53,989 nt of DNA, taken from NCBI RefSeq assembly GCF_018613235.1, contig NZ_JAGGQP010000038.1, positions 1 through 53,989 on the forward strand. Reading direction: 5' to 3'. The position numbers were made by a program, and so were the translations under genes. Below, one piece after another: positions 2,541-53,989 of the stretch. The stretch comes from Bacillus sp. ISL-41. GTDB taxonomy: Bacteria; Bacillota; Bacilli; Bacillales; Cytobacillaceae. The notes beneath the pieces were generated by a model that saw only the letters and a program-made list of their open reading frames with translations, had not been told where the DNA came from and did not search any database. How positions within the stretch are numbered: position 1 is the first letter of the stretch; each line of letters opens with the position of its first letter.

Positions 2541-2790
2541 TGCCCGGTCAGTGGTGTAAGCAAAAAAAATCGTTTAAGAAATATGTGCCCGGTTATGAGG
2601 AGCAAAGGTAAAACCGGTAACAAGAAGAAGAAATATATGCCCCGTTCTGAGAGGCTAGTTCAAAGCCGGTAACATAAAGAAGAGATATATACCCGGTGAT
2701 GAGGGCCAAGGTCAAAACGGGTAACATAAAAAAGAGATATGTCCACGGTCAGTGGTAGAAAGAGAAATTCCGTCACATAAAGCAGTGATA
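2541..2790. repeat. Degenerate ~52-bp tandem hairpin array
   Basis: Five imperfect units start near 2541, 2586, 2639, 2691 and 2742, spaced 45, 53, 52 and 51 bp. Each carries a CCCGGT-like left arm and, in most units, a GGTAACA-like right end before AAGAGATAT. Left and right arms co-vary: CCGGT/ACCGG in unit 2, ACCCG/CGGGT in unit 4, ACGG/CCGT in unit 5. There is no open reading frame. The rest of the 2430-3272 gap shows no gene; 2790-3120 is AT-rich and featureless to me. Confidence 0.75.
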
Positions 2791-3139
2791 GGGGTTCATT
2801 ATAATGCCCGAAGAAGCGAGAATAAAGCCCCATAATACATGTTATTTAACAGATCAATCAAATTACCCTAACCCAGCTATCCATACAATACGGTAGGTCT
2901 AAACCAGTAACAACTCGAACCTAGTATCCTCCTAAACTTAAAATCACGACTCAATCATTTCCTTCAAAAAGATGAAAACGTTATCAGTGAAAAACATTTT
3001 TTCTCCTATTTCCTCTATCAAACCTAATAAATTCAACTAATCTTATTAATGAATCATTATTCATTTTTTAACTTTCGTTCTCCAAATTTCGCATAATTGG
3101 AAGATTTAGTACATTAAAGCGCTACCATTTGAGGGGTTT

Positions 3140-3176
3140 TGTCGAAATATAATTTATTCTAAGAGTTATTGTCGAA
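3140..3176 (+). promoter_or_regulatory. Two Spo0A-like boxes upstream of glg operon
   Basis: TTGTCGAA occurs twice, with TGTCGAA at 3140-3146 and 3170-3176, exactly 30 bp (three helical turns) apart in the same orientation. TGTCGAA is the known core of the Spo0A binding site. They lie about 90 and 60 bp before a candidate start at 3228. Alternatively they are just a short 30-bp direct repeat. Confidence 0.5.
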
Positions 3177-3190
3177 ATATTAAAAAAATG

Positions 3191-3221
3191 TTTACAAGGA
3201 ATTCCTTCTGGTAACTAGAAT
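3191..3221 (+). promoter_or_regulatory. Candidate glg operon promoter
   Basis: TTTACA (3191-3196) and TAGAAT (3216-3221) are 19 bp apart. This spacing is longer than usual for SigA, though long spacing is known at Spo0A-activated SigA promoters such as spoIIG. The B. subtilis glg operon is reported to be SigE-dependent, and I cannot exclude an overlapping SigE promoter. Confidence 0.3.
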
Positions 3222-3272
3222 ACTACTGAAATAGGCAGTTTTTTTAGTTTTACAAAAGGCAGGTGGAGGGCA

Positions 3273-5231
3273 ATGGTGATTAATCCAACTGAGTTTGAAT
3301 TGCATTTGTTCCATGAAGGCAATCTGTTCCAGAGCTACAATTTATTTGGAGCACATGTCATTAAAACTGGAACTGGAACATATACTCGATTTTGTGTGTG
3401 GGCTCCTAAGGCGATGCAGGTAAGGCTTGCAGGTGATTTTAACAATTGGGATGGGAATGGATATGAGTTTCATAAAGTCAATCAGGAGGGGGTCTGGCAG
3501 CTCGCTCTAGAGGGTGATTTGACCGGTGCCATTTATAAATATGAGATTTTGACTGCATCAGGTGAGCGAAGACTAAAATCTGATCCTTATGCGTTTTTCT
3601 CTGAATTGAGGCCTAATACGGCTTCAATTGTCTATTCAGTGGACAGCTACAAATGGGATGACCAAAAATGGCTGCAAAAGCGTGAAAAGCGGACTACCCT
3701 CGCCGAGCCGATGTTCATATATGAGCTTCATGTGGGTTCCTGGAAGAAGCATGATAATGGTTCGTTCCTTACATACCGTGAGCTTGTAGATGAATTGATC
3801 CCATATATTGTTGCGCATGGTTACACACATATTGAATTATTGCCACTAACTGAGCATCCGCTCGACATCTCCTGGGGCTATCAATCCACAGGTTATTTTT
3901 CCGTTACGAGTCGATATGGAACTCCTCAGGATTTTATGTATTTCGTTGATATGTGCCATCAAAACAACATTGGAGTCATCCTTGATTGGATTCCGGGGCA
4001 TTTTTGCAAAGATGCGCACGGGCTGTACCAATTTGATGGCAGCTATGTGTTTGAATATCAGCGGGAGAATGATCGTGAGAATCAGGTTTGGGGAACAGCC
4101 AATTTTGACCTCGGAAAAACGGAGGTCCAGAGCTTTCTGATTTCGAGTGCCCTTTTCTGGCTCGAAAAATATCATATCGATGGCTTCAGGGTTGATGCGG
4201 TGGCCAATATCATCTACTGGCCTAATTCAATCCAGGCAGCGAACCAGTATGGTGTGGAATTTTTAAAAAAGCTGAACAAAGCGGTAAAAGATTTTGAGCC
4301 AGGGGCATTGATGATTGCTGAAGACTCGACTGACTGGCCGCAGGTGACGGCTCCCGTGGAGTATGGAGGTCTTGGTTTTACATACAAGTGGAACATGGGA
4401 TGGATGAATGACACCTTGAAGTATATGGAGGAAGAATCGCATAACAGGAAGCATATACATGATAAAGTTACCTTTTCGCTGCTTTATGCATTTTCAGAGA
4501 GCTTTGTCCTGCCTTTTTCACATGATGAAGTTGTTCACGGGAAGAAATCGCTTCTTGATAAGATGCCGGGTGATTACTGGCAAAAGTTCGCACAGCTTAG
4601 ACTATTGCTTGGGTTCATGGCTGCACATCCCGGAAAGAAGCTGACATTCATGGGTACTGAATTTGGTCAGTTTTCGGAATGGAAGGACAGGGAGCAGCTT
4701 GACTGGAATCTCCTTGATTATGAAATGCATGAAAAAATGAACCATTATAATAAGGAACTTATCAAATTGTATAAGCGGTCTAAGCCGCTGTATGAGGTCG
4801 ATCAAAGCTATGAAGGCTTTGAATGGATCGATGCTGATAACCGGGATCAGTCGATTTTTTCTTTTATCAGGAAAGGAAAGAATCCGGAAGAACTACTGGT
4901 CATCGTTTGTAATTTTACTGAAAAAGTATATAGCGATTATCGAATCGGTCTCCCAAAGCATGGTGAATACCGTGAGATTTTAAACAGTGACGCTACAGAC
5001 TTTGGCGGTTCAGGCATCATTAACAAAAAAGTTTTGAAAGCGGAAGAAATAGCCTTCCATGGAAGGCCATATTCTATAGAGATGAGTATTTCTCCATTCG
5101 GAATCTCAGTTTTACGTCCTGTTATAAAAAGAAAGGGGAGAAACAATCATGCAAAAGAAGAAATGCGTAGCAATGCTGTTGGCAGGAGGAAAAGGAAGCC
5201 GGCTGCACTCACTGACGAAGAATCTCGCTAA
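3273..5231 (+). CDS. glgB: 1,4-alpha-glucan branching enzyme
   Basis: It forms alpha-1,6 branch points in glycogen by cutting and re-attaching alpha-1,4 chains, in the cytoplasm. The N-terminal CBM48-type domain includes [10 protein letters not shown]. The GH13 domain follows, with the nucleophile in GFRVDAV (D308), the acid/base in [10 protein letters not shown] (E350) and the transition-state aspartate in FSHDEVVHG (D418). The start has the Shine-Dalgarno AGGTGGAGGG. The 652-residue product ends in a basic tail ([19 protein letters not shown]...) read from sequence that also encodes the first 27 residues of glgC in another frame. The overlap is 83 bp. The tail probably arose by loss of an earlier stop. 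First gene of the glgBCDAP operon. Confidence 0.96.
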
Positions 5232-6297
5232 GCCAGCTGTCCCTTTTGGAGGCAAATATCGGATTATTGATTTTCCATTAAGCAACTGCACGAATTCGGG
5301 CATCCATACAGTGGGCGTTTTAACTCAATATCAGCCGCTTTTGCTCAATTCTTATATTGGCATCGGCAGCGCATGGGACCTCGACAGGAAGGATGGCGGT
5401 GTGACGGTACTGCCGCCTTATGCGGAAAGTTCCGAAGTTAAATGGTATTCTGGCACGGCAAGTGCGATTTTTCAGAATCTGAATTATCTCGATCAGTATG
5501 ACCCGGAATATGTTTTGATTCTTTCCGGTGACCATATTTATAAAATGAATTATGAATTGATGCTCAATTACCATATTGAAAAAGGTGCTGATGCGACGAT
5601 TTCGGTCATTGAAGTGCCATGGGAAGAGACGAATCGTTTTGGGATCATGAACACGGATTCTGACCTGAGGATCACTGAATTTGAGGAGAAGCCGGATGTG
5701 GCGAAAAATAATCTCGCTTCAATGGGGATTTATATTTTTAAATGGAGCGTTTTAAGGGAATATCTGATAAGGGATGACCAGAATCCAGAATCCAGCCATG
5801 ATTTCGGCAAGGATATCATTCCTCTGTTAATACAAGAAAATATGAAATTATTTGCCTATCCTTTTAAAGGCTACTGGAAAGATGTTGGGACTGTTCAAAG
5901 TCTTTGGGAAGCGAATATGGATTTATTGGATAAGGACTGCGAATTGAATCTTTTTGATCATTCATGGCGTATTTACTCGGTGAACCCTAACCAGCCGCCT
6001 CAGTATATTTGTCCAGAAGGCGGAGTGTCAGAGTCGCTGGTCAATGAGGGATGCAAAATTGAAGGGGAGGTTTCCAGGACGGTTGTTTTCCAGGGAGTGA
6101 CCGTAAAAAAGGGAGCGGTTGTAAAGGAATCCGTAATCATGCCGGATGCTATTATCGGACACAACTGTGTGATTGAAAAGGCGATTGTATCCCCAGGAGT
6201 CTATGTTCCTGATGGAACAATCATCAGGCCGGGCGAGAGCGTGAATGACATTACACTAGTATCTGAAGAAACAATCGGAGAATTGCAATCCAATTGA
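5149..6297 (+). CDS. glgC: Glucose-1-phosphate adenylyltransferase
   Basis: It makes ADP-glucose from glucose-1-phosphate and ATP, the committed step of glycogen synthesis. The nucleotide-binding loop LAGGKGSRL is at residues 11-19, followed by [19 protein letters not shown] and [12 protein letters not shown] left-handed beta-helix region of hexapeptide repeats runs from about residue 290 to the end. Length 382 is normal. The start is set by AAAGGGGAG nine bases before ATG, inside the 3' end of glgB. GlgD follows 22 bp later. Confidence 0.97.
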
Positions 6298-6319
6298 ACC
6301 GATTCGGGAGGAAAAAGAA

Positions 6320-7348
6320 ATGAACAAACAATTATTAGGAGTAATAGATGCGACAACTGTCCACGATGATCTCCAGGAACTGTCCGTTCACCGCTCAGTG
6401 GCAGCAATTCCATTCGGCGGGCGATACAGGCTGATTGATTTTATCCTTTCCAATATGGTCAACTCAGGAATCCAGAGCGTGGCTATTTTTCCTAAATTCC
6501 AATACAGGTCACTGATGGACCATTTGGGCTCAGGCAGGAATTGGGATCTTAACCGGAAAAGGGATGGACTATTTTTCTTCCCTGCCCCTAACCTTGATAA
6601 ACATTATACAGGGATTGGCACGCTGGACCATTTTGCTGACAACATAGACTTCTTTGAACGCAGTACCCAGGAGTATGCTTTGATTTCGAATTCCTATACG
6701 GTATTCAATATGGATTTCCAGCCGCTGCTTGATTGGCATATTAAATCTGGCTGCGATATCACCGAGGTACAGAAGGAAGGGAAATCACTGGGCATATACC
6801 TCGTGAAAAAGACATTGTTGATGGATTTGGTCTTGACGCGGAATGAAACGGGCTATTCAAATATGAGGGATGTCGTGACTGATCTTGATAGCCAGTTCCA
6901 TCTCTGTTATTACAATTTTGATGGCTACGCTTCAATGGTTGATACGATTGAAAACTATTTCAAGACCAGCATGGATTTGCTGAAGCCAGAGGTTTGGAAA
7001 GAGTTATTCCCGAAAGAAAGGCCAATCCTGACCAAGGTAAAAGATGAGCCGCCGACCCGTTATGATGTGGACGCATCGGTACGAAATTCGATGGTTGCCA
7101 ACGGCGGAATGATCGAGGGCACGGTGGAAAACAGCATCATTGCCCGCGGGGTAAAAATCGGCAAAGGTACTGTCATCCGCAATTGCATCATCATGCAGAA
7201 GACACAAATTAAGGAGAATTGTCTATTGGATTCAGTGATTGTTGATAAGGATGCAAGAATCGAAGCAGGGACAGTGATTACAGCGCCAGCAGAATCACCG
7301 GCTGTCATCCGCAAGGGTACGGTCCAGGGAGTGGGGAGCAGCTCGTGA
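6320..7348 (+). CDS. glgD: GlgD-type regulatory subunit of ADP-glucose pyrophosphorylase
   Basis: It is a paralogue of GlgC with the same fold but altered active site. The N terminus reads [15 protein letters not shown] where GlgC has the AGGKGSRL loop, so the G-rich loop is missing. Downstream, [17 protein letters not shown] is kept. In Bacilli GlgC and GlgD form a heteromer in which GlgC is catalytic and GlgD stimulates it. The C-terminal hexapeptide repeats ([19 protein letters not shown]) match the beta-helix domain. Shine-Dalgarno GGGAGG precedes ATG. The stop overlaps the glgA start by 4 bp (GTGA). Confidence 0.95.
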
Positions 7349-8796
7349 AGGTTTTATTTGCTGTATCGGAATGTGTCCCGTTCATCAAGTCAGGAGGCTT
7401 GGCTGATGTAGCAGGTTCACTTCCGAAGGAACTCAAAAAGCTGGGAACGGATGTCCGAGTCATTTTACCGAAGTATGGACTGATCCCCGATAAGTTCCGC
7501 TCTGAAATGCAGAAAGTGAAAGAGTATAATGTGCAATTAAGCTGGCGCTCGCAATACTGCGGCATTGAAACTCTTGAATACGACGGTGTTACTTTCTATT
7601 TTGTAGATAATGAGTATTATTTCAAGCGCGATAGTCTTTACGGCCATTATGATGATGGGGAACGGTTCGCATTTTTTAACAGGGCCGTCCTTGAATTGTT
7701 CGCAGAAATCGAATATTACCCTGATGTGATCCATTGCCATGATTGGCATACAGGGATGATTCCATTTTTACTAAGGACTGAGTACTATAAGCGGCCCGGA
7801 TACGGATTGATCAGGTCCGTGTTCACGATTCATAATCTGCAGTTCCAGGGAATTTTCCCCCCAGAAGTATTGGGGGACCTGCTGCAGATTGACAGCCGTT
7901 ATTTCAATGAAGAGCAGCTGGAATTTTTCGGGAACACCAACTTCATGAAAGCAGCTTTAATTGCTGCTGACCATATTACTACTGTCAGTCCTACCTACAA
8001 GGCAGAAATCCAGACAGATTTTTATGGTGAAAGGCTGGATGGCATCCTGCGGAAAAGAAACGAGGACTTATCCGGGATTTTGAATGGGATTGATCACGAT
8101 TTATACGACCCTGAAAAGTATCTTGGATTGACTGCCAATTTTGGAGTGAACTCACTTGAAAGAAGAGTCGAAAACAAGCTTCAAGTACAGCGTGAGTTCA
8201 GTTTGCCGGAAAACGAGGAGATCCCTGTTGTCGCGATGATCACAAGGCTGACGAAGCAGAAGGGTCTCGATTTGGTCAGGGGAGTCTTCCATGAAATGAT
8301 GGCGACTGGAATGCAGCTGGTAGTGCTGGGAACAGGCGACCCTGAGTTTGAGCAATTTTTCAAAGAAATGTCAGCGCGTTATCCTGAGCAGTGTGGCGTA
8401 TACATTGGCTTTGATGAGAATTTGGCTCATCAAGTCTACGCAGGCTCTGATTTGTTCCTGATGCCCTCCAAGTTCGAACCTTGCGGGCTAAGCCAGATGC
8501 TCGCGATGCGCTATGGCTCCATTCCTGTTGTCAGAGAAACAGGCGGCCTGAACGACACTGTACAGCCTTACAATGAATTTAACGGTGAAGGCAATGGATT
8601 TACCTTTGCGAATTTTAACGCCCATGACATGCTGTTTACGCTTGAAAGGGCGCTGTCTTTTTACCATAAGCGCGAAAAATGGCTTAAGCTGGCGAAAAAT
8701 GCTATGGAGACAGACTACAGTTGGGCACAGTCTGCCAGACAATACGAAGAATTATATTCCGATCTCATCTCAAGGAGTGAATCGCATGTTTTCTAG
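7345..8796 (+). CDS. glgA: Glycogen synthase (ADP-glucose)
   Basis: A GT5 glycosyltransferase that extends alpha-1,4-glucan chains from ADP-glucose. Start is GTG within the GTGA overlap with glg[17 protein letters not shown] at residues 15-30 holds the ADP-glucose-binding K-x-G-G motif. [13 protein letters not shown] and [19 protein letters not shown] are the family's conserved blocks, the second with the catalytic E-x7-E region. Length 483 is typical. Its last 11 bp overlap glgP, suggesting translational coupling. Confidence 0.97.
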
Positions 8797-11226: not shown

Positions 11227-11262
11227 TGCTATATTCATTCGATTGGAAAGCTTGCCGGGAAT

Positions 11263-11371
11263 TCTATAAGCCCGAATGAGATCAAGGAAGCTAAAAAGGT
11301 ATATAGAAAAAGTCTATAAGCCTAGATGGGACCATTGAATCTGAAAAAGGCTCGCTTTTCTCTATAAAATC
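11263..11371. repeat. ~50-bp imperfect repeat, three starts
   Basis: TCTATAAG/TCTATAAA recurs at 11263, 11313 and 11361, so the period is 50 and 48 bp. Units hold internal complementarity (TCTATA...TATAGA in the first, AGCC...GGCT in the second). The third copy supplies the TAG stop of the minus-strand transporter gene. The block sits between two convergent genes. Confidence 0.5.
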
Positions 11372-14292: not shown

Positions 14293-14328
14293 ATGGCGAA
14301 GGGGGAACTATAATCGAGCTTCTTTTTA

Positions 14329-14702
14329 GGTTACCAATCTGGCTTATTGGTGCTCGTTTTTTCCTAAAAAAAAGAAATTAAGGTCACCAATCTGGTTTAT
14401 TGGTGCTTGGTTTTTCCTGAAAAAGGAAATATAGATTACCAATCTGTTTTATTGGTGTCCATTTTTTCTAGAAAAAGGAAATTCAGGTCACCAATCATGC
14501 TTATTGGTACTCGATTTTACCTAAAAAAAGGAAAAAAGGGTTACCAATCTGGCTTATTGGTGTTTGTTTTTACCTAAAAAAAGGAAAAATAGGTCACCAA
14601 TCTGGCTTATTGGTGCCTGGTTTTACCTAAAAAAGGAAAAAACGGTCACCAATCTGGCTGATTAGCGTCCTCTTTCTCCAAAAATATGAAATTTAGGTCA
14701 CC
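14329..14702. repeat. 52-53-bp tandem array, seven full units plus one partial
   Basis: Units start at 14329, 14382, 14434, 14486, 14539, 14592, 14644 and 14696 (partial). Each unit holds two inverted repeats: CACCAAT...ATTGGTG around a 7-base loop, then TTTTTCC...GGAAA. The period of 52-53 is not a multiple of three and stops occur in all frames, so it is not coding. The array fills most of the 14293-14906 gap; 14710-14865 shows nothing I recognise. Confidence 0.95.
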
Positions 14703-14869
14703 AAATATCGTCCCAATACCGGATAATCTCATCGCCAATCTGCCCGATGGACACTTGTTGTTTTCAGAAAAAATTACAAATTAGATTCCAAATATGACAA
14801 TATAAATGGGGATCATGTCTATGAATTTAGAACTCATGTTGATAATCGGTAATTAATCCTGCGCAAGAA

Positions 14870-22196: not shown

Positions 22197-23687
22197 ATGA
22201 CTGAAACCATGCCTAACTGGCTGAAAAAACGTGCAGAACTGTCTCCAGACCGCGAAGCACTGATTTTCGAAGGAAAAACATATACCTTCAAGCAAGTTTT
22301 TGAAAAAGCGAAAGCTTATGCTGGCAAACTGGACGCACTCGATCTTCAAACAGGTGAAACCGCGGCTGTGCTGTTTTCCAATCAGGCTGAGTCTGTGTTT
22401 ATTTTATATGCCTTGCAAATGGCTGGAATAAGGGCGGTTATTTTGAATAATCGTCTTACTCCAGAGGAGCTTTCATGGCAGCTTGATGACAGTGAAGCGA
22501 AGGTGCTCGTATATGAGCACCGCTTTGATGACAAAGTATCAGAGATTAATTCTGATATAAGAAAAATCAGCTCAGATGAATGGAGCCAGCTGCAGGAAAA
22601 GACCGTTTCCATCCTTGAAGAATACGACATGAACAGCGTAACGACATTAATGTATACATCAGGAACGACCGGCAATCCGAAAGGAGTCATGCAAACATAT
22701 GGCAACCATTGGTGGAGTGCGAATGCATCTGCACTCAATCTCGGTCTGCATGGACATGATAAATGGCTTTGCACAGTCCCTATCTTCCATATCAGCGGCT
22801 ACTCTATTTTGATGAGGAGCCAGATATATGGCATGCCAGTTGTTTTGCATTCTTTTTTTAACGAAAAAAAGGTAATCAAGGATATCGAGCGATACAATAT
22901 AACCATCATGTCTGTTGTCAGCACGATGTTGAGACAGATCCTTGAAGAACTGGGAACAGGAAGATTGCCGGAATCTTTCCGCTGCATGCTACTTGGGGGA
23001 GGGCCTGCACCGCTTCCTTTGCTGGAGTCCTGTCTCGAAAAAGAAATCCCTGTATTCCAGACCTATGGCATGACCGAAACTTCATCACAGTTTGCGACAT
23101 TATCACCTGAATATAGCATTGAACGACTTGGGTCTGCGGGTAAAGCTCTGTTCCCTAACCAAATCAGGATTGTCGATGGTGATGGCCAGGAGGTTCCTTC
23201 AGGTGCAGAGGGAGAGATTGTCGTCAAAGGGCCGAACGTAACCATCGGATACCTGAACCGTCCCGATGAAACTGCTGATAAAATCCGGGAAAGATGGCTT
23301 CATACCGGTGATATAGGCTATATTGACGGCGATGGTTTTCTTTATGTCCTTGACCGCCGTTCCGATTTGATCATTTCAGGCGGTGAAAATATCTATCCAG
23401 CAGAAATCGAAGGCATCCTGCTTTCCCACCCTGGTGTTGCTGATGCCGGTGTGATCGGAGCACAAGATGAGAAATGGGGACAGGTGCCAGTGGCTTTTAT
23501 TGTGAAAAGCGATCCTGGCGTATCAGAAGATGTGTTGCTGGCTCTTTGTGAAGCGAAACTCGCAAAATACAAGCTACCGAAAAGAATCTACTTTGTTGAC
23601 AACCTGCCAAGGAATGCCGCGAAGAAATTATTAAGGCGTAAACTGCGCGAGTGGCTCGAAGCTGAAGGTAATGGCAGTGGATATTAA
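22197..23687 (+). CDS. menE: o-Succinylbenzoate-CoA ligase
   Basis: An ANL-family adenylating enzyme that activates OSB with ATP and CoA. P-loop TLMYTSGTTGNPKGVMQTY is near residues 150-168. YGMTETSSQ, LHTGDIGYIDGDGFLYVLDR and GGENIYPAEIE follow. The C-terminal lysine motif is NAAKKLLRRKL rather than the usual NA(S/T)GK. ATG at 22197 is chosen for AGAGAGGTG upstream; an in-frame GTG lies at 22188. 496 residues. It overlaps menC by 17 bp. Confidence 0.96.
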   Translation: MTETMPNWLKKRAELSPDREALIFEGKTYTFKQVFEKAKAYAGKLDALDLQTGETAAVLFSNQAESVFILYALQMAGIRAVILNNRLTPEELSWQLDDSEAKVLVYEHRFDDKVSEINSDIRKISSDEWSQLQEKTVSILEEYDMNSVTTLMYTSGTTGNPKGVMQTYGNHWWSANASALNLGLHGHDKWLCTVPIFHISGYSILMRSQIYGMPVVLHSFFNEKKVIKDIERYNITIMSVVSTMLRQILEELGTGRLPESFRCMLLGGGPAPLPLLESCLEKEIPVFQTYGMTETSSQFATLSPEYSIERLGSAGKALFPNQIRIVDGDGQEVPSGAEGEIVVKGPNVTIGYLNRPDETADKIRERWLHTGDIGYIDGDGFLYVLDRRSDLIISGGENIYPAEIEGILLSHPGVADAGVIGAQDEKWGQVPVAFIVKSDPGVSEDVLLALCEAKLAKYKLPKRIYFVDNLPRNAAKKLLRRKLREWLEAEGNGSGY

Positions 23688-24783
23688 AACCGTTAAATTA
23701 GCCATCATCAAAATGCCGTTGAAGCACCCTTTCACTACCCATTTGGGCTTTGTTACGGAGAGAGAAGCGATCATCGTTGAGGTTGAAGACCGGCACGGTT
23801 TTATCGGATATGGAGAGGGTGTAGCCTTTTCCTCTCCATGGTATACCGAGGAAACCGTGCAGACTTCATACCATATGCTAAAGGATTTTTTAATTCCTCT
23901 TTTGAAAGAGAAGGGGATTAGTCATCCTGACCAAGCTATCAACTTGTTCAGTTTCGTGCGCAGAAACCATATGGCAAAGGCTGCGCTCGAAACAGCGCTC
24001 TGGGATTTGCATGCTAAGAAGGAAGGTGTTCCGTTATCCACGCTGATGGGCGGAACGATGGAAGCCATCCCTGCAGGTGTCGTTGTAGCCAATCCAAATT
24101 TGCCTGAGGCACTGAAACAAATAGAAGTCTATCTAGAGCAAGGATTCAAACGGGTTAAGGTAAAAATCAGTCCAGAAAGTGATTATCAATATATATCAGG
24201 AATTCGTAAAGAGTATCCTGATCTGCCGTTAATGGCGGATGCCAACTCGGCCTACTCTCTGGAGGATGTGGACCGTTTAAAGGCACTGGATGCGTTCGGT
24301 TTGCTGATGATCGAGCAGCCGCTTGGTTTTGATGACATTGTTGACCATGCCAAGCTGCAGGGGCAGATTGAGACACCAATATGCCTTGATGAAAGCATCG
24401 TTACTTTTGATGATGCAAGGAAAGCAGTGGAGTTAGGCAGCTGTGGGATCATCAATATTAAAATCGGCCGGGTCGGCGGACTTGGCGAAGCGAAACGGAT
24501 CCATGACTATTGTGCTGCTAAAGGGATTCCAGTCTGGGCCGGCGGGATGATTGAGTTTGGCATTTCCAGAGCACATAATATCGCTCTCGCATCGCTCCCA
24601 GGCTTTACGATTCCAGGTGATATCTCAGGCTCAGACCGTTATTGGGAGCAGGATATCATTGAGCCAGAAATCAAAGTGGAAAACGGAATGATCAAGCTGC
24701 CAGAGAGCCCTGGCATCGGCTTTGAATTGAACAGGAAGAGATTGAAGGAAGTTACTGTTTTTGAAGAACGGTTTGAATTCTAG
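23671..24783 (+). CDS. menC: o-Succinylbenzoate synthase
   Basis: An enolase-superfamily dehydratase that turns SHCHC into OSB. KRVKVKIS supplies the catalytic lysine pair (K163, K165). DANSAY, EQPL and DES are the metal ligands, and NIKIGRVGGLGEA is the next conserved block. Start ATG 23671 has GAAGG very close; GTG at 23677 would be better spaced. 370 residues. Last gene of the men cluster. Confidence 0.95.
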   Translation: MAVDIKTVKLAIIKMPLKHPFTTHLGFVTEREAIIVEVEDRHGFIGYGEGVAFSSPWYTEETVQTSYHMLKDFLIPLLKEKGISHPDQAINLFSFVRRNHMAKAALETALWDLHAKKEGVPLSTLMGGTMEAIPAGVVVANPNLPEALKQIEVYLEQGFKRVKVKISPESDYQYISGIRKEYPDLPLMADANSAYSLEDVDRLKALDAFGLLMIEQPLGFDDIVDHAKLQGQIETPICLDESIVTFDDARKAVELGSCGIINIKIGRVGGLGEAKRIHDYCAAKGIPVWAGGMIEFGISRAHNIALASLPGFTIPGDISGSDRYWEQDIIEPEIKVENGMIKLPESPGIGFELNRKRLKEVTVFEERFEF

Positions 24784-24791: not shown

Positions 24792-24822
24792 AAAGCACTG
24801 CTTGGGCAGTGCTTTTATTTTT
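24792..24822 (+). terminator. Terminator of men cluster
   Basis: AAAGCACTGC / GCAGTGCTTTT hairpin followed by ATTTTTT. Confidence 0.92.
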
Positions 24823-24856
24823 TGGAACTGGAAAAAATCAGCGTAATTTTCCAATT

Positions 24857-24960
24857 CGCTATAAAAATTTGATTTTCGCTATAAAACTTAAAAAGTCGCT
24901 ATAAAAATAAAAAAGTCGCTATAAAAATGAATTTTCCGCTATAAAAAAGTGTTGCCGCTC
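24857..24960. repeat. 20-bp-period array of CGCTATAAAA
   Basis: CGCTATAAAA occurs five times with exactly 20-bp spacing (24857, 24877, 24897, 24917, 24937), then CGCT again at 24956. The ten bases between cores vary. Further CGCTCTTTA words lie at 24956 and 24980. No open frame. It sits about 35 bp beyond the men terminator. Confidence 0.95.
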
Positions 24961-39250: not shown

Positions 39251-39300
39251 TATTGGCGAAAATCAGATTTTATTGGCGGAGTTCACAACTTTATTGGCGC
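39251..39300. repeat. 20-bp-period array of TATTGGCG
   Basis: TATTGGCG occurs at 39251, 39271 and 39292, spacing 20 and 21 bp, with variable bases between. It lies about 60 bp beyond the ytkD terminator and between convergent genes, as in the CGCTATAAAA array at 24857. Confidence 0.8.
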
Positions 39301-46165: not shown

Positions 46166-46289
46166 TTTGTTTAATTAATCTATACTAATGACTCGAAAAA
46201 TTACCTTGTACCTAACTTGCGTTATATAATTCTTTCTTTATATAGTCAAGCGAAAAGGATGCTTTTCAGGCGCTTTTTTTCACAAAAAA

Positions 46290-46343
46290 ACTTTCAACAA
46301 CAATCGACTTTATTTTCCAAAAAAACTTTCAACAACAATCGAC
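46290..46343. repeat. 35-bp direct repeat upstream of metK
   Basis: ACTTTCAACAACAATCGAC occurs at 46290 and 46325, each preceded by a run of A. It lies between the pckA and metK promoters. Confidence 0.8.
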
Positions 46344-46362: not shown

Positions 46363-46391
46363 TTGACATGCAATTATAGTTTCGTTATGAT
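46363..46391 (+). promoter_or_regulatory. metK promoter
   Basis: TTGACA (46363-46368), 17 bp, TATGAT (46386-46391). A strong SigA match placed just before the S-box leader. Confidence 0.85.
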
Positions 46392-46408
46392 TTGGACTTG
46401 AACGGATA

Positions 46409-46554
46409 CTCTCTTATCCCGAGCTGGTGGAGGGACAGGCCCAATGAAACCCAGCAACCTGCAGACGTGAAAAAACAGCCTTTGGAATGCTGATCTTTTT
46501 CCGGGCAAAGGTGCTAACCTGACGCAAGGGAACTGCCCTTGAACGATAAGAGCG
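46409..46554 (+). ncRNA. SAM-I (S-box) riboswitch
   Basis: The closing stem is CTCTTATC / GATAAGAG. Inside are GAGCTGGTGGAGGGACAGGC, CCAATGAAACCCAGCAACC, AAAGGTGCTAACCTG and GCAAGGGAACTGCCC, the S-box core in order. With the following terminator it should shut off metK when SAM is plentiful. Confidence 0.97.
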
Positions 46555-46575
46555 AAAGGCGCGGATTTAAGCAAA

Positions 46576-46606
46576 AACCTTTCCTCGTAATTGGAGAGGT
46601 TTTTTA
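46576..46606 (+). terminator. S-box expression-platform terminator
   Basis: AACCTTTCC / GGAGAGGTT around TCGTAATT, followed by TTTTTT. A further leader of about 230 nt without visible genes separates it from metK. Confidence 0.9.
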
Positions 46607-46836
46607 TATTGCTTATTTCTGTCCAATGCAGGAAATGCTGCTGGACTGCCTTCTTAGGTGTCATTGCTCCCGTGGGTGAAATTAGGAAAAAAGAAATTCA
46701 CCATGAACTCTAAACAAATTTTTCTAATAAAAACTCAGCGTTTATTTCATACTACATAGGGAATGAGTACCGTATCAACCCGGGGTCTGTATTGGGACAG
46801 CCTCGATCAATTTTTATAAATAAGGGAGGAACTCAG

Positions 46837-48039: not shown

Positions 48040-48047
48040 AAAAGTAC

Positions 48048-48085
48048 AAAGGGAGTTGCATAGAAATATGTAACTCCCTTTATTA
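48048..48085 (+). terminator. Terminator of metK
   Basis: AAAGGGAGTTGCATA / TATGTAACTCCCTTTA long hairpin with a short T-rich tail. The rest of 48086-48333 shows no gene or confident promoter. Confidence 0.85.
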
Positions 48086-48333
48086 TTTGCCGTCTAATCA
48101 GGGAACACTCAAAATCCCATCAGGTTTGTGTATGGTCCAAAAGGTGTAAAATAGAGTATTACCTTAAATTTCCCTTAGATTTTACTGCAAAAAAATTGCG
48201 TTTAATGATAGTATTAGATGGTATGTTTTTAGGAAGATCATTTCTATTAGGTTCTTTGTTATAAAAATCGCGCTTTGAACGTAAATCAGCGCAAAACTAA
48301 ATTTTTTCTGAAATGGAGAAGGTGAAGTACATA

Positions 48334-50229
48334 ATGTGTGGCTTTATCGGTTGTGTACATGAGAATGCACAAGAATTCAGCGGCGATGATAAGCAGCTGT
48401 TTAAAAATATGAATGACATCATCACCCATCGCGGTCCTGATGATGATGGATATTTCTATGATGAGCATATCCAATTCGGCTTCCGCCGTCTGAGCATCAT
48501 TGATCTCGAGGCTGGTCATCAGCCATTGACCTATGAAAATGAGCGTTACTGGATCATTTTCAACGGGGAAATCTACAATTATCTTGAGCTTCGTGAAGAG
48601 TTGATGGAAGAAGGGCTCAGCTTCGAAACTCACTCGGATACTGAAGTCATCATTGCTCTTTACAGCCATCTTAAAGAGCAGGCTGTCGACAAGCTGCGTG
48701 GTATGTTCGCATTTGTCATCTGGGATAAAGAAGAGCAGGTTCTTTACGGTGCGCGTGACCATTTCGGAATCAAGCCATTCTTCTATTTTGAAGATGGCGA
48801 CCGTACGTTCTTTGGTTCTGAGAAAAAGAGTATCCTGCTTGCGCTGGAAAACGATGTCCTTGATTACAAGGCACTGCAGCATTATTTGACATATCAGTTC
48901 GTTCCAGAACCAAATACAATGTCCGAAGGCATTTACAAGCTTGAGCCGGGGCATTATTTTACAAAGAAAATCGGTTCGCCGATGGAAATCAAGCGTTACT
49001 GGAAAGCGAGCTTTTCGCCAATCCACAAAACCGAGGATGAATTTACGAAGGAGATCAGGGACGTCCTGTTTGAATCCGTAAAAATCCACATGCGCAGTGA
49101 TGTGCCAGTTGGATCATTCCTTTCTGGCGGAATTGATTCTTCGATCATCGCGTCGATTGCGAAACAGTACCATCCTGGGATCAAGACATTCTCTGTTGGT
49201 TTTGAACAGAATGGCTTCAGTGAAATTGACGTCGCGAAGGAAACAGCTGATCGACTTGGTGTCGAAAACATCAGCTATGTGATCAGCCCGCAGGAGTACA
49301 TGGATGAACTGCCGAAAATCATGTGGCATATGGATGACCCGCTTGCCGACCCGGCAGCGATCCCTTTGTATTTCGTTGCCCGTGAAGCGCGGAAGCATGT
49401 AACGGTTGTCCTTTCAGGTGAAGGAGCGGATGAATTGTTCGGCGGATATAATATCTACCGTGAACCGCAGGATCTTGAGATGTTCAACAAAATCCCTCAG
49501 GCAGGGAAGGTCATGCTCAAAGGCATCGCGAAAATGATGCCAGAGGGAATGAAGGGGAAAAGCTTCATTGAACGCGGCGTGACACCAATGCAAGAGCGTT
49601 ATATCGGAAATGCGAAGATGTTCTCTGAAAAAGAGAAGAGCGAGCTGCTGCACGTATATAACGGCCAGTACGATTACAGGGATATCACGAAGCCTCTTTA
49701 CAGAGAGAGCAGAGGATATGACCCGGTTGATACGATGCAATATATCGATATCCATACATGGATGCGCGGCGACATTTTATTGAAGGCTGATAAAATGACG
49801 ATGGCTCATTCACTGGAGCTTCGTGTACCATTCCTGGATAAGATTGTTTTCGAAACAGCTTCGAAGATTCCTACAAGCCTGAAGACGGCTAATAATACAA
49901 CAAAGTATATCTTACGTAAAGCGGCTGAAGGTGTGGTTCCTGAGCACGTGTTAACCCGCAAGAAGCTGGGCTTCCCGGTGCCGATCCGCCACTGGCTGAA
50001 GAACGAAATGAATGAATGGGCAAAGAATATCATCAAGGAAAGCAACACAGAGCATCTCATCAATAAGTCATACCTTTTGAAGCTATTGGATGACCACTGC
50101 CAGAACAAGGCGGATAACAGCCGCAAAATCTGGACGGTATTGATGTTCATGATGTGGCATGATGTGTATGTCGAAAAAAAATACTCCTTCCAGAAGGAGT
50201 ATGAGGCTCAAAAAGTATTGCAGTCTTAA
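48334..50229 (+). CDS. asnB: Asparagine synthase (glutamine-hydrolysing)
   Basis: It amidates aspartate using glutamine and ATP. The start at 48334 is fixed by the catalytic Cys2 (MCGFIGCV), which must become the N terminus, and by GGAGAAGGTG upstream. The glutaminase domain (2 to about 200) has RGPDDDGYF and NGEIYNY. The synthetase domain has the PP-loop LSGGIDSS and VVLSGEGADELFGGY. 631 residues. Confidence 0.97.
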   Translation: MCGFIGCVHENAQEFSGDDKQLFKNMNDIITHRGPDDDGYFYDEHIQFGFRRLSIIDLEAGHQPLTYENERYWIIFNGEIYNYLELREELMEEGLSFETHSDTEVIIALYSHLKEQAVDKLRGMFAFVIWDKEEQVLYGARDHFGIKPFFYFEDGDRTFFGSEKKSILLALENDVLDYKALQHYLTYQFVPEPNTMSEGIYKLEPGHYFTKKIGSPMEIKRYWKASFSPIHKTEDEFTKEIRDVLFESVKIHMRSDVPVGSFLSGGIDSSIIASIAKQYHPGIKTFSVGFEQNGFSEIDVAKETADRLGVENISYVISPQEYMDELPKIMWHMDDPLADPAAIPLYFVAREARKHVTVVLSGEGADELFGGYNIYREPQDLEMFNKIPQAGKVMLKGIAKMMPEGMKGKSFIERGVTPMQERYIGNAKMFSEKEKSELLHVYNGQYDYRDITKPLYRESRGYDPVDTMQYIDIHTWMRGDILLKADKMTMAHSLELRVPFLDKIVFETASKIPTSLKTANNTTKYILRKAAEGVVPEHVLTRKKLGFPVPIRHWLKNEMNEWAKNIIKESNTEHLINKSYLLKLLDDHCQNKADNSRKIWTVLMFMMWHDVYVEKKYSFQKEYEAQKVLQS

Positions 50230-50232
50230 AAA

Positions 50233-51138
50233 TCAGGGAAGGTAGGTAATGGCCTGCCTTCCCATTTGCACCCAGGCTTCCACGAAGTCTTTCATGGGTG
50301 CTTTTTTATTTTTTTCGCCCGTTAATGGGTCATTGAAGTAAATGGAATTTTCATCATAGCCTGTAATCAGGACCGAATGCTCCTTCATGGTTACTTTTAC
50401 TGGCCCATCAGGCGTGTACCATGTCTGGAAAAAGCCTTCGTCCAGTTTTCTGTATTCCGTGTTCGTGATTACCCAAACCGGCCGGCCATCTGACAGGTGG
50501 ATTTTCAGCTCTTGTAATTCGGCGCCCGTCAAATCTTTTATTTTGCCGGGAAGATACTGTTCTGCCAGGTCGGCAATCGGCTTGTGGTAGACTCCAAGTC
50601 CAGGTTCTGTGTAGGTGTACATATTGCCGACAAACCCTTTATTCGGGTCGCCAAAATAGATTTTGCCATCACTGAGACGATATTCGGCAGGGTTTTTCTT
50701 CACTTCTCTTGCGAGTGTCAGCTTGTCAGCCTGAACCCCTTGATGCTGCAGGAGCATGGCCAGACTTGTGACCTCACATCCTCTTGGGAGCTCTGGCATT
50801 TGCCAGATAACTGGAGCGTCAAGGACTACCTGTTTTTTGATCGGGATAATATCAGGTTCATCATTTTCGATGATCACAGGTGCCTTTTCGGCAGACGGTT
50901 CAGGTTCTTCAAGCCAGCTTTTCACTGACTGAACGGCTTTCGCAACATGGGAAGCCTGCACATTTTCCATCAGGAAAGCCCCGAGGATCGATGTGAAAAC
51001 AAACAGGAACATCAGGATGGATTTCATCATGCTATTTTGTTTTCGGATCAACAGATAAAACAAGAGCAGCAGAGGTATGATTGCCGCAAGCGGTAAATAC
51101 AGTTTTTCCACATCCATCACCACGTCCGCATATTTCAA
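50233..51138 (-). CDS. C39-like cysteine peptidase, membrane-anchored
   Basis: 301 residues. One or two hydrophobic segments lie at the N terminus (about 14-32 and 39-57), then an acidic linker. The peptidase domain (about 108-300) has the catalytic Cys in ELPRGCEVTSLAMLL, the His in EHSVLITGYD and FNDPL. It resembles YvpB-type C39_2 proteins. The start is uncertain: ATG 51138 or ATG 51117, neither with a strong ribosome site. It converges on asnB with 3 bp between. Confidence 0.82.
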   Translation of the reverse strand: MKYADVVMDVEKLYLPLAAIIPLLLLFYLLIRKQNSMMKSILMFLFVFTSILGAFLMENVQASHVAKAVQSVKSWLEEPEPSAEKAPVIIENDEPDIIPIKKQVVLDAPVIWQMPELPRGCEVTSLAMLLQHQGVQADKLTLAREVKKNPAEYRLSDGKIYFGDPNKGFVGNMYTYTEPGLGVYHKPIADLAEQYLPGKIKDLTGAELQELKIHLSDGRPVWVITNTEYRKLDEGFFQTWYTPDGPVKVTMKEHSVLITGYDENSIYFNDPLTGEKNKKAPMKDFVEAWVQMGRQAITYLP

Positions 51139-51202
51139 AAATAAAAGGGTATATTATATTATTTAATATCGGACTGGTGAGGGAGTTTTTTTAGAGATTC
51201 AT

Positions 51203-51718
51203 TCACCTTTGTTGCAAACTTTTATAGTATTGTCCTTTTTCAGCATATTCTCTGGAAATACGTTCCATATCGCGGATGTCATCTTCATTCAATTCACGGA
51301 TGACTTTTGCCGGACGACCAAAAGCAAGCGTGTTGGGCGGGATTTTCTTTCCCTGCGGAACAAGGCTGCCGGCACCGATAAACGCACCTTCTCCGATTTC
51401 AGCCTGGTCAAGGATGATCGAGCCCATCCCAATTAAGGCTTTTTTTCTGATGATGCAGCTGTGGAGGATGACCTGATGTCCGACCGTTACTTCGTCTTCG
51501 AGGATTAATGGATTGTTCGGACTCTGGTGCAAGACTGAGTTATCCTGGATATTCACTTTATTCCCAATAATGGTAGGGGAGACATCGCCGCGGATCGAGG
51601 TGTTGAACCAGACACTCGATTCCTCGCCGATTTCAACGTCTCCGGTAATCGTTACATAATCCGCAATAAAAGCGGAATCCGCTATTTTAGGTGTTTTTCC
51701 TTTGTAAGGGTAAATCAT
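51203..51718 (-). CDS. ytoA: Gamma-carbonic-anhydrase-like hexapeptide protein
   Basis: 171 residues of left-handed beta-helix repeats (ADYVTITGDVEIGEESSVWF). Histidines in NSVLHQSP, VGHQVILHSC match the gamma-CA metal positions. ATG 51718 has AGGAG eight bases upstream and gives the length known for B. subtilis YtoA; the GTG at 51727 overlaps that site. Real activity is not proved for this subfamily. Confidence 0.92.
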   Translation of the reverse strand: MIYPYKGKTPKIADSAFIADYVTITGDVEIGEESSVWFNTSIRGDVSPTIIGNKVNIQDNSVLHQSPNNPLILEDEVTVGHQVILHSCIIRKKALIGMGSIILDQAEIGEGAFIGAGSLVPQGKKIPPNTLAFGRPAKVIRELNEDDIRDMERISREYAEKGQYYKSLQQR

Positions 51719-51823
51719 TGCGCACACTCCTATAATTTATTGATGCTTTCGTTTTTATTTTTTACTAATTATATATTATAGTTCTTTTAAAGAAAGAAAA
51801 AGTATTTGAGTGGGGGAATGGTC

Positions 51824-52627
51824 ATGTGGAAATGGGAAGCTGATGGGGATCCTAAGGCTGTAATCGTGATGATTCATGGTGCGCTGGAGCATCATCGCCG
51901 GTATGGCTGGCTGATTGAAGCCTGGCGCTCATCCGGATTTCATGTCATAATGGGTGATTTGCCTGGGCAGGGCATGACGACAAGGGCGAACCGTGGCCAT
52001 ATTGATTCATTTGACGAATATATCATGGAAGTGAAAGAGTGGGTTGAAGCTGCGTATGACTTTGACCTCCCGGTGTTTTTGCTGGGCCATAGCATGGGCG
52101 GGCTCGTTGCCATCCGCATGCTGCAGGAGGAGAGGGTCGAAATTGCCGGGCTGATTTTGTCATCGCCTTGCCTCGGTTTGGTGAATTATCCTTCGAAAAT
52201 GCTGGATATGCTGTCGCATGGCTTGAATGTCATTGTGCCGACTTTCAGGATTTCACCTGGTCTGTCAGTCGAGATGGCCACCAGGAATGAGGATGTCAGG
52301 GCAGTCGACGCGAATGATTCACTGTACATCACCAAGGTGTCGGTGCGCTGGTACCGCGAACTGGTGGCTGCAATGGAGCAGGCCTTTGAAAATATAGACA
52401 AAGTACAGGACGTCCCGACTTTGCTAGTTCAAGGCGGCGATGATCAGATTGTAGATAAACGTTCTGTTAAGGAATGGTTCAATAATGCTCCCTTGTCGGA
52501 AAAAAGATATAAAGAATGGCCGAAGTGTTATCATGAAGTGTTCAACGAACCTGAACGAGAAGAGGTTTTTGATTATGCACATGATTTTGTCATCAGTCAG
52601 CTGAAGGCGATTGGTTATGTGTATTAG
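51824..52627 (+). CDS. ytpA: Monoacylglycerol lipase-like hydrolase YtpA
   Basis: 267 residues. IHGALEHHRRYGW is the oxyanion loop, LLGHSMGGLVAIR the nucleophile elbow, GGDDQIVD the acid and CYHEVFNE the His. YtpA of B. subtilis acts as a phospholipase and is needed for the lysophospholipid antibiotic bacilysocin. ATG 51824 follows GGGGG at good distance. Next to ytpB, 24 bp away. Confidence 0.93.
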   Translation: MWKWEADGDPKAVIVMIHGALEHHRRYGWLIEAWRSSGFHVIMGDLPGQGMTTRANRGHIDSFDEYIMEVKEWVEAAYDFDLPVFLLGHSMGGLVAIRMLQEERVEIAGLILSSPCLGLVNYPSKMLDMLSHGLNVIVPTFRISPGLSVEMATRNEDVRAVDANDSLYITKVSVRWYRELVAAMEQAFENIDKVQDVPTLLVQGGDDQIVDKRSVKEWFNNAPLSEKRYKEWPKCYHEVFNEPEREEVFDYAHDFVISQLKAIGYVY

Positions 52628-52651
52628 ATATGGAGAGGGTGAAGCTGCAGC

Positions 52652-53746
52652 ATGATGATCCCATCAATGCCCATCAGTTTGATGTACCGTGTATACAGGC
52701 AAGTCCTGCCTCAAGTACACCGTGAGCTTGCCTACTGGAAAAGCAGGGCAGAGGAGATTCCCAATCCGGAATTAAGAAAACAGGCGCTGGCCAGTATCGA
52801 GCATAAGACATTCCATTGTGAGGGTGGTTCGATTTTAAGCCTGACCGCGAAAAAACAATATAAGCAAGCAATCCGGTTCATTGTCGCATACCAGACAATC
52901 AGCGATTATCTCGACAATCTCTGTGATCGCAGCACGTCCATGGACCCCGCGGATTTTTCAGCGCTGCATGAATCAATGGCGGATGCCCTTACTCTTGACA
53001 GCCAGCTGAAAAATTACTATCGCGAACGGGAAGACCAGAATGATGGCGGATATCTGATCGAGCTGGTGACCGTTTGCCGAGAAGTACTTAGAGAGCTGGA
53101 TCATTATCATGAGATTCAGCACCATCTGCTGGAGCTATGTGATTATTACTGTGATTTGCAGATTCACAAGCATGTTGAGGTCAAAGAGCGTGTCCCGAGA
53201 CTGCAAACATGGTTCGACGGCCACCGAGAAGGGGTTCCGGACATGGAGTGGTATGAATTCTCTGCCTGTACCGGCTCGACGCTCGGAATCTTTTGCCTAG
53301 TGAGCTACGCGCTTCGCAATGATTTCACACCAGAGTATGCTGACAGTATCCGGAATGGCTATTTTCCATACATACAAGGGCTGCACATCCTGCTCGATTA
53401 TTTTATTGACCAGGAGGAGGACCGCGAAGGCGGCGATTTGAACTTCTGCTTCTATTATGAAAATGAAGAAGCATTATTCGAGCGGCTCCGGCACTTCGTG
53501 GAAAATGCCGATCATCACACGGCTCGATTGCCGCATCGAAACTTCCACAAACTAATTAATCGCGGGCTGCTCGGCGTTTACCTGTCCGATGAAAAAGTAA
53601 GGCGCCAGGAGCGGATCAGGAAGCTGGCCAGGGAAATGATCAAAACCGCCGGCCCTGTCAGCTACTTCTTTTATATCAATGGACGAGCATATCGGTCATT
53701 GCAGAGGTGGGTTCCTGCTGGAGTTGTGAAGGCGTTTATAAAGTAG
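52652..53746 (+). CDS. ytpB: Tetraprenyl-beta-curcumene synthase
   Basis: 364 residues. A large-terpene cyclase of the YtpB type that turns long prenyl diphosphate into tetraprenyl-beta-curcumene, an early step to C35 sesquarterpenes. The metal-binding motif is SDYLDNLCDR (near residue 84). It has no DDxxD motif. DYFIDQEEDREGGDLNFCFYY and WYEFSACTGSTLGI are other conserved blocks. Co-transcribed with ytpA. Confidence 0.93.
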   Translation: MMIPSMPISLMYRVYRQVLPQVHRELAYWKSRAEEIPNPELRKQALASIEHKTFHCEGGSILSLTAKKQYKQAIRFIVAYQTISDYLDNLCDRSTSMDPADFSALHESMADALTLDSQLKNYYREREDQNDGGYLIELVTVCREVLRELDHYHEIQHHLLELCDYYCDLQIHKHVEVKERVPRLQTWFDGHREGVPDMEWYEFSACTGSTLGIFCLVSYALRNDFTPEYADSIRNGYFPYIQGLHILLDYFIDQEEDREGGDLNFCFYYENEEALFERLRHFVENADHHTARLPHRNFHKLINRGLLGVYLSDEKVRRQERIRKLAREMIKTAGPVSYFFYINGRAYRSLQRWVPAGVVKAFIK

Positions 53747-53752
53747 GATGGC

Positions 53753-53788
53753 AACAGCCAGGAGTTTGATTTCCAGGCTGTGTTTTTA
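53753..53788 (+). terminator. Terminator of ytpAB
   Basis: ACAGCCAGGAG / TTCCAGGCTGT imperfect hairpin followed by GTTTTT. Confidence 0.75.
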
Positions 53789-53812
53789 TGAGGACCGACC
53801 ATCATAAAGGGG

Positions 53813-53989
53813 ATGATGGACAAAAATCAGTCGGAATCCTGGAAAAAGTGTCCATCATTAGGAAGATGATGGACAAAAACTTGATGGAATCATGAAAAAG
53901 TGTCCGTCATCAAGGCGATGATGGACAAAAACTCGATGGAATCATGAAAAAGTGTCCGTCATTAGGTTGATGATGGACAAAAACTTGAT
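53813..53989. repeat. ~52-bp tandem hairpin array, running off the window
   Basis: GATGATGGACAAAAA starts at 53813, 53865, 53918 and 53969, spaced 52, 53 and 51 bp. Each unit ends in GTGTCCATCAT or GTGTCCGTCAT, which pairs with the unit start (TGATGGACA / TGTCCATCA). The array is cut by the window edge. Confidence 0.95.

Follow-up and report, generated by a model that had tools for sequence, protein, structure and literature searches.

Constant-size repeats and the arrays of the window

Tandem repeats of constant size (20–21 and 51–53 nt) and variable sequence were described in Bacillus by Subirana and Messeguer in 2021, who called the arrays enigmatic and named B. selenatarsenatis, B. boroniphilus and B. 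subterraneus (now Mesobacillus) among the carriers (PMC8161180). The constancy of steps of 20 and 52 bases despite differing sequence is thus already published. The arrays studied here, which we call class I (20-bp step) and class II (52/53-bp step), are members of these known constant-period arrays of Bacillus and its relatives. Two other systems resemble them in part. BOX elements of Streptococcus pneumoniae are intergenic and modular, an end module being joined to tandem boxB units whose number varies (PMC3049150); compared by description rather than by sequence, they share with our arrays the end module, the tandem units, the intergenic position and the variable unit number, but they belong to a single family that is bounded by boxA and boxC and show no constant period over unrelated families. 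STAR elements of Staphylococcus (PMC3532100) are likewise direct repeats between genes, in which a short core is conserved and the intervening sequence varies, and they too expand and contract, but they have a single family of GC-rich 14-bp cores at least 40 bp apart. REP/BIME elements with RAYT transposases are extragenic, palindromic and dispersed, and the plasmid ParR/parC centromere contains 20-bp repeats. The latter is like class I in that its direct repeats recur roughly every two helical turns, a path along which a protein filament could run; the arrays here differ in occupying dozens of chromosomal sites at gene ends. An iteron or centromere of a plasmid or phage was rejected, two array queries having no plasmid match; the family A pattern introduced below occurs in 3 stretches of a viral collection. 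A CRISPR array was likewise rejected, judged on the repeats alone: class I has a core of 10–12 bp and A/T-constrained spacers, as against identical repeats of ∼24–40 bp with unique spacers.

The window is the whole stretch of 53,989 nt that was analysed. The first-pass annotation had reported six arrays of unrelated sequence in it, with two fixed periods, beyond the ends of genes; this observation is partly confirmed, and the interpretation given with it is partly supported. Five of the six stand. Behind a tRNA cluster and a terminator lies a class II array of period 52 (2541–2790, plus strand; family E, CCCGGTT..AACCGGTAACA), for which Tandem Repeats Finder reports 3.2 copies at 2576–2740. 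Family D (GGTCACCAAT-7-ATTGGTG) forms a class II array of period 52–53 between convergent genes (14328–14704, plus strand; period 53 and 6.4 copies at 14328–14663), and family A (TGTCCNTCAT-7-ATGANGGACA) forms one of period 52 that is cut by the contig end (53801–53989, plus strand; period 52 and 3.6 copies at 53802–53989). The class I array at 24857–24956 (plus strand; period 20 and 4.8 copies at 24853–24947) has five cores CGCTATAAAA in 20-bp steps with differing spacers. It is preceded by a leader at 24826–24856 (plus strand), an inverted repeat AACTGGAAA..TTTCCAATT adjoining the first core, and by a hairpin with a T-run at 24793–24824 (plus strand) that reads like a terminator behind the menC-like gene at 23671–24783 (a TIGR01928 match); most orthologues are alike in layout. 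The second class I array (39251–39299, minus strand, between convergent genes) has the core CGCCAATAAA (TTTATTGGCG on the plus strand) in three copies, TATTGGCG recurring with steps of 20 and 21, and lies under the array threshold that we used in the source genome. The sixth, at 11260–11347 (plus strand, between convergent genes), is doubtful as an array, being two degenerate copies of 38 nt each with 74% identity, 50 bp apart, for which Tandem Repeats Finder gave no row of ∼50-bp period; this program confirmed four of the six. Of the 24 Rfam matches at gathering score that the window gave (tRNA, 5S, T-box, SAM), none lies over an array.

The annotation had known no named family that fits, which is not supported in view of the published constant-size arrays of 20–21 and 52 nt (PMC8161180). 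Most intergenic arrays of the source genome have sizes of 20–21 or 51–53 nt and fall into several non-coding families, intergenic by our gene calls; against the minimum of four copies used in that study, those at 14328 and 24853 have more, and those at 2576 and 53802 (the latter contig-cut) fewer. Our arrays and the published ones agree in coming in two sizes, in varying in sequence, in forming several families within a genome, in sharing short signals and in holding forward and reverse elements within one repeat. New here are the placement at gene 3′-ends, the leader and the change of family at one orthologous site, which a word search did not find in that paper, and the sharing of TGTC-N19-GACA, which is unstated in its abstract, introduction, results, discussion, legends and tables.

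Period, sequence and placement

In addition to the window, 787 kb of the 4.62-Mb source genome were covered, and statistics were taken on 640 kb of them (contigs C33 1–240k, C16 1–200k, C8 1–160k and C2 60–100k). These contigs were chosen after they had shown pattern matches, and selection therefore bears on the choice of contigs, though not on what lies along them; our own gene caller divided them into 111,646 intergenic and 528,354 coding bases. Runs of exact 10-mers in the intergenic part peak at the two claimed periods and their multiples, with 22 at lag 20, 7 at 21 and 18 at 40, and with 96 at 52, 53 at 53, 75 at 104, 39 at 106, 56 at 156 and 28 at 159. Coding DNA of the same blocks gave 1 run at lag 52 and 0 at 53, its repeats having lags that are multiples of three (for example 7 at 21 and 15 at 42), and a single mononucleotide shuffle gave 0 runs at the array lags. 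On this sample the pattern is real and genome-wide, with an excess at 20/21 and 52/53 bp. A fundamental lag between 45 and 60 was seen in 25 of 50 intergenic arrays and was 52 or 53 in every one of these; lags of 20, 21, 41, 42, 52 and 53 together cover 39 of the 50 arrays of any period, leaving 11 outside. The sharp intergenic spectrum recurs in 15 other genomes of the order and bears out the claim that period rather than sequence is constrained.

At least seven class II families can be read in the source genome, with units alike within an array. The description of the ∼50–53-bp units as self-complementary holds for 17 of the 25 unselected 52/53-bp arrays (dyad p ≤ 0.05), and that of the arrays as unrelated in sequence must be restricted: TGTC-N19-GACA, a 27-bp site with half-sites 23 bp apart, is common to 11 of the 25, across several families, whereas 14 are without this pair. 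It occurs 55 times where about 1.6 would be expected, and the pair with any gap other than 19 is present in at most 1 of the 25 arrays. Among published consensus units, 22 of 27 do not contain it. TGTCCGATA may resemble a half-site of Tn3-type resolvases. Among 397 genomes of 135 genera, family A occurs in 39 genomes and 19 genera, and for most of its stems pairing as RNA would still be possible.

Class I units are direct repeats, neither palindromic nor built as hairpins. The spacing between adjacent cores is exactly 20 in 192 of 200 pairs, and spacer identity is 0.553 within arrays vs 0.504 between them. Moreover these arrays are polarised, a strict leader pattern being present in 63 of 82.

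The arrays adjoin gene 3′-ends, as had been claimed. Placement between convergent genes is upheld for class II, in which it holds for 9 of the 23 arrays placed and was expected for 16.8% (p 0.009; 2 of the 25 could not be placed between gene calls), but class I has only 2 of 14 in the same blocks; a larger class I set gave 18 of 71 (p 0.058, not significant alone), 11 of 82 arrays being left out because a gene call within limits was missing on one side or both. In the 15 other genomes, arrays lie between convergent genes more often than expected. Other dispersed repeats fill the same intergenic gaps in some species.

Orthologous sites

Behind the gene at 52679–53746 the period persists while the sequence turns over: arrays of lag 51–53, drawn from five families, occur there in 15 of 19 species (the count omits G001, with two fragments and 40 bp of flank, and G010, with no match). 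Arrays occur at the place orthologous to the menC site in 17 of 21 genomes, with unit number varying by whole units between close species, from 2 in G001 to 6 in G014. At the site of the 39251 array, 14 of 21 genomes pass the array threshold, and at that of the 14328 array (the YteA site) 7 of 20 have arrays of lag 51–52. Turnover of family under a constant period was seen at one of four sites tested; wherever the other three carry arrays, these belong mostly to one family. At the fourth site to be read, loci of 14 among the 20 matching genomes were covered, and half of these loci lack an array altogether.

Candidate protein sites and competing explanations

Judged from sequence, the arrays are most likely rows of spaced sites for putative DNA-binding proteins at the ends of transcription units. 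Each unit would be one candidate binding site, a dyad in class II, with half-sites 23 bp apart in the TGTC/GACA families, and a direct repeat about two helical turns from the next in class I. Proteins might line up on one face of the helix, and selection would then act on the spacing and not on most of the intervening letters. That a TGTC/GACA pair at fixed distance is present in part of the supposedly different arrays points to such a protein. The role of the resulting nucleoprotein array would most likely be that of a roadblock or boundary, set past terminators and in the gaps of convergent genes, or else a part in organising the nucleoid, while slippage or unequal exchange would shift the number of units and one family would in time supplant another at a site. 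Taken jointly, sites with selected spacing, one of these roles and the replacement of families make a reading that we regard as evenly poised between right and wrong. A wider version is tentative and on the improbable side, namely a system throughout the Bacillales in which related proteins bind inverted TGTC/GACA half-sites 23 bp apart every 52 bp, and sister direct sites every 20–21 bp, gather on arrays where transcription units end and isolate the genes beside them, the families interchanging at the same sites while the protein step stays fixed. The 27-bp site of fixed spacing, the sister class with its leader and the site of family replacement offer direct handles on these enigmatic arrays, and if a protein is behind them, a large group of soil and industrial bacteria would possess a boundary or nucleoid element of a new kind.

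Both RNA hairpins and pure slippage fit less well than arrays of protein sites. The discoverers themselves proposed an RNA role (PMC8161180), and 52-nt arrays of B. coagulans are reported as transcribed (PMC8625621). The arrays might then be hairpin small RNAs, a sponge for RNA-binding proteins, or structures for processing or termination, as would be allowed by their position behind genes and by the inverted repeats, seen in 17 of the 25 class II arrays. We consider this unlikely: class I units are direct repeats, and the loop of family A is exactly 7 in 51 of 51 Mesobacillus units and 9 of 9 further units although its letters vary. Moreover, 17 of the 51 Mesobacillus units have a central pair that lacks complementarity (A-C 8, G-T 6, G-A 2, C-C 1), counted with strand relative to the upstream gene uncontrolled, and such mismatches are more easily reconciled with a protein site than with a hairpin.

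It is also rather improbable that mutation alone, as slippage or copying with a preferred step of ∼20 and ∼52, produced the arrays with their spacing unselected. Changes by whole units between close species, the similarity of class II units within arrays and the presence or absence of an array at one site are what such a process would give, and given the other repeats in these gaps, gene ends may simply be tolerant of them. However, the spacers of class I differ almost as much within arrays as between them while their length is held, half-sites and the gaps between arms persist from genus to genus, and two step sizes would have to arise, for which we know of no mechanism. Slippage at hairpins alone, an earlier suggestion, is not supported by class I, which has no hairpin units and whose spacers are hardly homogenised within arrays yet constant in length.

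A REP/BIME-type element spread by RAYT transposases is very improbable: the REP/BIME-like distribution noted earlier holds, the arrays being extragenic, dispersed and often palindromic, and the genome has two Y1-type genes (84.0 and 75.3 bits against NF047646, one above and one below the cut-off of 80), but beside these RAYT-type genes lie repeats of other kinds (GGGGGACGGTTCT and GGGGGTCTGACCCCC types) and no array, core patterns gave only four scattered single matches in the two loci, and the arrays differ in their fixed period and non-palindromic class I.

Two further ideas on class I were dropped. The A-run of the core and the A/T run of the spacer are, by eye, not ∼10 bp apart as A-tract bending would have them, and two spacer types show no clear alternation among neighbours (AA 36, AT 24, TT 23, TA 21). 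The reversed control of the CGCTATAAAA pattern gave 45 matches in genome G168, 1 in G237 and otherwise 0; 100 kb of G168 contain one other array, with a 40-bp step and a motif differing from the CGCTATAAAA pattern.

Two period classes in intergenic DNA

Exact 10-mer repeats within single intergenic regions, counted over 640 kb of the 4.62-Mb, 57-contig assembly (to which the window contributes contig C32, 1–53989), peaked at lags 20, 21, 40, 52, 53, 104, 106, 156 and 159, and the coding DNA of the same 640 kb gave one run at lag 52 and none at 53, its other repeats having lags divisible by three. The intergenic regions, put through a single mononucleotide shuffle, gave 0 at the peak lags. The intergenic peaks and the near-absence of lags 52 and 53 in coding DNA thus uphold, in this 640-kb sample, the first-pass annotation's proposal of fixed periods near 20 and 50–53 bp, since periods were not evenly spread and arrays were not equally common inside genes. 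Scanning for arrays separately yielded 50 in intergenic DNA, with fundamental lags of 20 (7), 21 (4), 41 (2), 42 (1), 52 (20), 53 (5) and others (11), among which one of lag 42 or 21 may be a chance repeat. With lags of 15 to 80 allowed, 15 other genomes, sampled for 100 kb each, held intergenic arrays at lags 20 (3), 21 (4), 40 (1), 41 (2), 51 (5) and 52 (9), and one each at 56, 63 and 66; seven of these samples contained no array of either period class, that is, 20–21 bp (class I) or 51–53 bp (class II).

Six arrays had been proposed in the window; four were recovered by Tandem Repeats Finder and the array at 39251 shows direct repeats with steps of 20 and 21 bp and is backed by its orthologues, leaving that at 11263 as a poor case of no more than two degenerate copies with a 50-bp step. 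Class II arrays also lie at contig ends or starts (window 53802–53989; contig C8, 6–389, and contig C20, 187287–187462, of the same genome), so the short-read assembly may have been broken by the arrays, which would then be under-counted. Elsewhere in the window, a 35-bp unit occurs twice (94% matches) at 46273–46343, immediately 5′ of a SAM riboswitch (46411–46552), and a single plus-strand cluster at 113–2388 comprises 5S rRNA followed by 21 tRNA genes.

Class I arrays: core, leader and gene ends

The class I core pair CGCTATAAAA-N{8,14}-CGCTATAAAA matched 52 times in the window's genome, with a step of exactly 20 bp in 51 and 19 bp in one, and its reversed control gave 0 matches there. Within the genus, 18 of 21 genomes carry it, the window's own included, and in the order-level sample it was found in 10/10 genus members and 0/387 others. 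In that sample the reversed control AAAATATCGC-N{6,14}-AAAATATCGC matched 45 times in genome G168, perhaps marking a further class I family, and once in G237. Among 82 distinct class I arrays the step was 20 bp in 192 of 200 adjacent core pairs (19 bp in two, 21 bp in five, 14 bp in one), and longer distances of 40 (34), 60 (9), 41 (2), 42 (1) and 38 (1) bp are expected where an intervening core is mutated. Spacer identity was 0.553 within arrays (238 pairs) and 0.504 between them (18,098 pairs); the spacers are partly constrained, as unit position 17 was never G/C in 192 spacers and position 20 was T in 93%.

In 63 of the 82 arrays a strict pattern finds a leader, AACTGGAAA..TTTCCAGTT, directly adjoining the first exact core; among 12 listed misses seven resemble near-matches, and in three mutated cores separate the leader from the first exact one. 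Leader plus core matched 60 stretches of named records, from Mesobacillus, unclassified Bacillus strains and a few other genus labels. The distribution of these matches suggests that the window's genome belongs to Mesobacillus, and the odd labels (Cytobacillus oceanisediminis 2691, Chryseobacterium sp. ISL-80 and one Hydrogenophilales bin) are taken to be mislabelled or mis-binned records.

The suggestion that arrays lie beyond gene ends was borne out. Gene ends adjoin the class I arrays on their leader side: in 61 of 71 placed arrays the left gene points toward the array (null 0.473, p 2.6e-11), and none of the 71 lies between divergent genes; the first exact core lies a median of 75 bp from the stop codon, and 38 of the 61 have a terminator-like hairpin by a simple rule. 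In the sample of 15 other genomes described above, 25 arrays could be placed between gene calls: convergent genes flank 11 of them (null 16%, p 0.001) and divergent genes one (null 32%, p 0.001). Behind the menC-like gene (TIGR01928; 23671–24783, with the array at 24857), the orthologous 3′ site has at least two cores in 17 of 21 genomes, the spacers varying and the clean units numbering from 2 to 6, and the ytkD-like site (array 39251) has a single class I family in 14/21 genomes.

Class II arrays: half-sites and change of family at one site

Self-complementary units, described earlier for the four window arrays of about 50–53 bp, were present in most class II arrays (17 of the 25 unselected ones reached dyad p≤0.05, as did 27/35 when ten chosen arrays were included). 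Families, assigned by reading the sequences and named in this analysis, are A (TGTCCNTCAT/ATGANGGACA), A′ (TGTCCGATAG/CTAACGGACA), B (CCCTTAT/ATAAGGG, period 53), C (CCTGTC/GACAGCTTT), D (CACCAAT/ATTGGTG), E (CCCGGTT/AACCGGTAACA) and H (AGACATTT/AAATGTC), and a few further families occur once. Several families do differ, but the arrays are not wholly unrelated in sequence as had been supposed: A, A′, C and H have the geometry TGTC-N19-GACA-N25 in common, and TGTC-N19-GACA occurs in 11 of the 25 unselected arrays, each other gap from 0 to 44 being found in at most one. By occurrence, where repeated units within one array are not independent, gap 19 was seen 55 times in intergenic DNA versus the ∼1.6 that coding DNA would predict (0 to 5 times for other gaps), and 32 times versus 2.9 expected in the other genomes (gap 17, 11 times); by array, gap 19 was present in 4/14 and gap 17 in 2/14 class II arrays of those genomes. 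Family A is present in 39 of 397 genomes and 19 of 135 genera (control columns 0). Its loop, allowed to be 0 to 24 bp, was 7 bp in 51/51 Mesobacillus units and 9/9 others at the loci analysed, and the central pair of the 51 units was G-C in 33, A-C in 8, G-T in 6, G-A in 2, A-T in 1 and C-C in 1.

Comparison of the same loci in related strains showed a persisting period with changing family at one site and a mostly constant family at others. Behind orthologues of the gene at 52679–53746, an array of lag 51–53 was present in 15 of 19 species with readable flank, assigned by reading the loci to family A (G000, the window's genome, G011, G016, G020), A′ (G005, G009, G013, G014), E (G003, G004, G008, G017), B (G006, G007) or a further family (G012); G015 has a single E-like unit, and G002, G018 and G019 no array. 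A FastTree tree built from four joined proteins requires at least 10 changes of state (mean 12.1 and minimum 7 over 1000 shuffles), so array state holds little inheritance, and the close pair G014 and G016 (0.069 substitutions per site) have A′ and A, respectively. Arrays occupy the YteA-like site (array 14328) in 7/20 genomes, mainly as family D, and 7 of the 14 loci read at a fourth site, all as family A, the other 7 having none. The same gaps hold other dispersed repeats in G018, G016 and G013, so tolerance of repeats at gene ends may be part of the pattern. A dispersed repeat, GTGGAAGGCG..GACTCC..GGAAAGCGAAGCGCCTGGAACG, lies at array sites of some species (loci L247, L347, L350).

Possible mechanisms and published arrays

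We favour a model in which the double-stranded DNA is read by a protein whose reach is fixed; the strict spacing, mostly free letters, recurring half-sites, tolerated central mismatches and non-palindromic class would fit it. Arrays acting as RNA hairpins are less favoured, because mismatches at the centre of units are tolerated and one class is not palindromic. Pure slippage is argued against by the little homogenisation of class I spacers. The position of the arrays, past the ends of genes and in class II also between convergent ones, speaks for a putative role as boundary or roadblock or in the nucleoid.

The first-pass annotation knew no named family that fits; however, constant periods with variable sequence are already published, this very group included (PMC8161180), and those who described them suggested that a polymerising protein or small RNAs are involved (PMC8161180), either of which may hold here. 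B. coagulans arrays are reported to be transcribed (PMC8625621), which may apply here too. Sequence conservation between species was said to be absent (PMC8161180), a rule from which the TGTC/GACA half-site pair and family A depart; TGTC-N19-GACA is present in 5 of the 27 consensus units of Table 1 of that paper (coagulans two; litoralis, thermoamylovorans and alkalitelluris one each), and among the 22 without it one has gap 17. Open-licence full texts and a word search of PMC8161180 yielded no earlier report of the gene-end position, the leader, the change of family at one site or TGTC-N19-GACA, although a 2020 J Bacteriol paper could hold some of them. The flanks of two RAYT-type genes (loci L333 and L334) carry GGGGGACGGTTCT- and GGGGGTCTGACCCCC-type repeats, which are possibly the genes' own REP-like partners.
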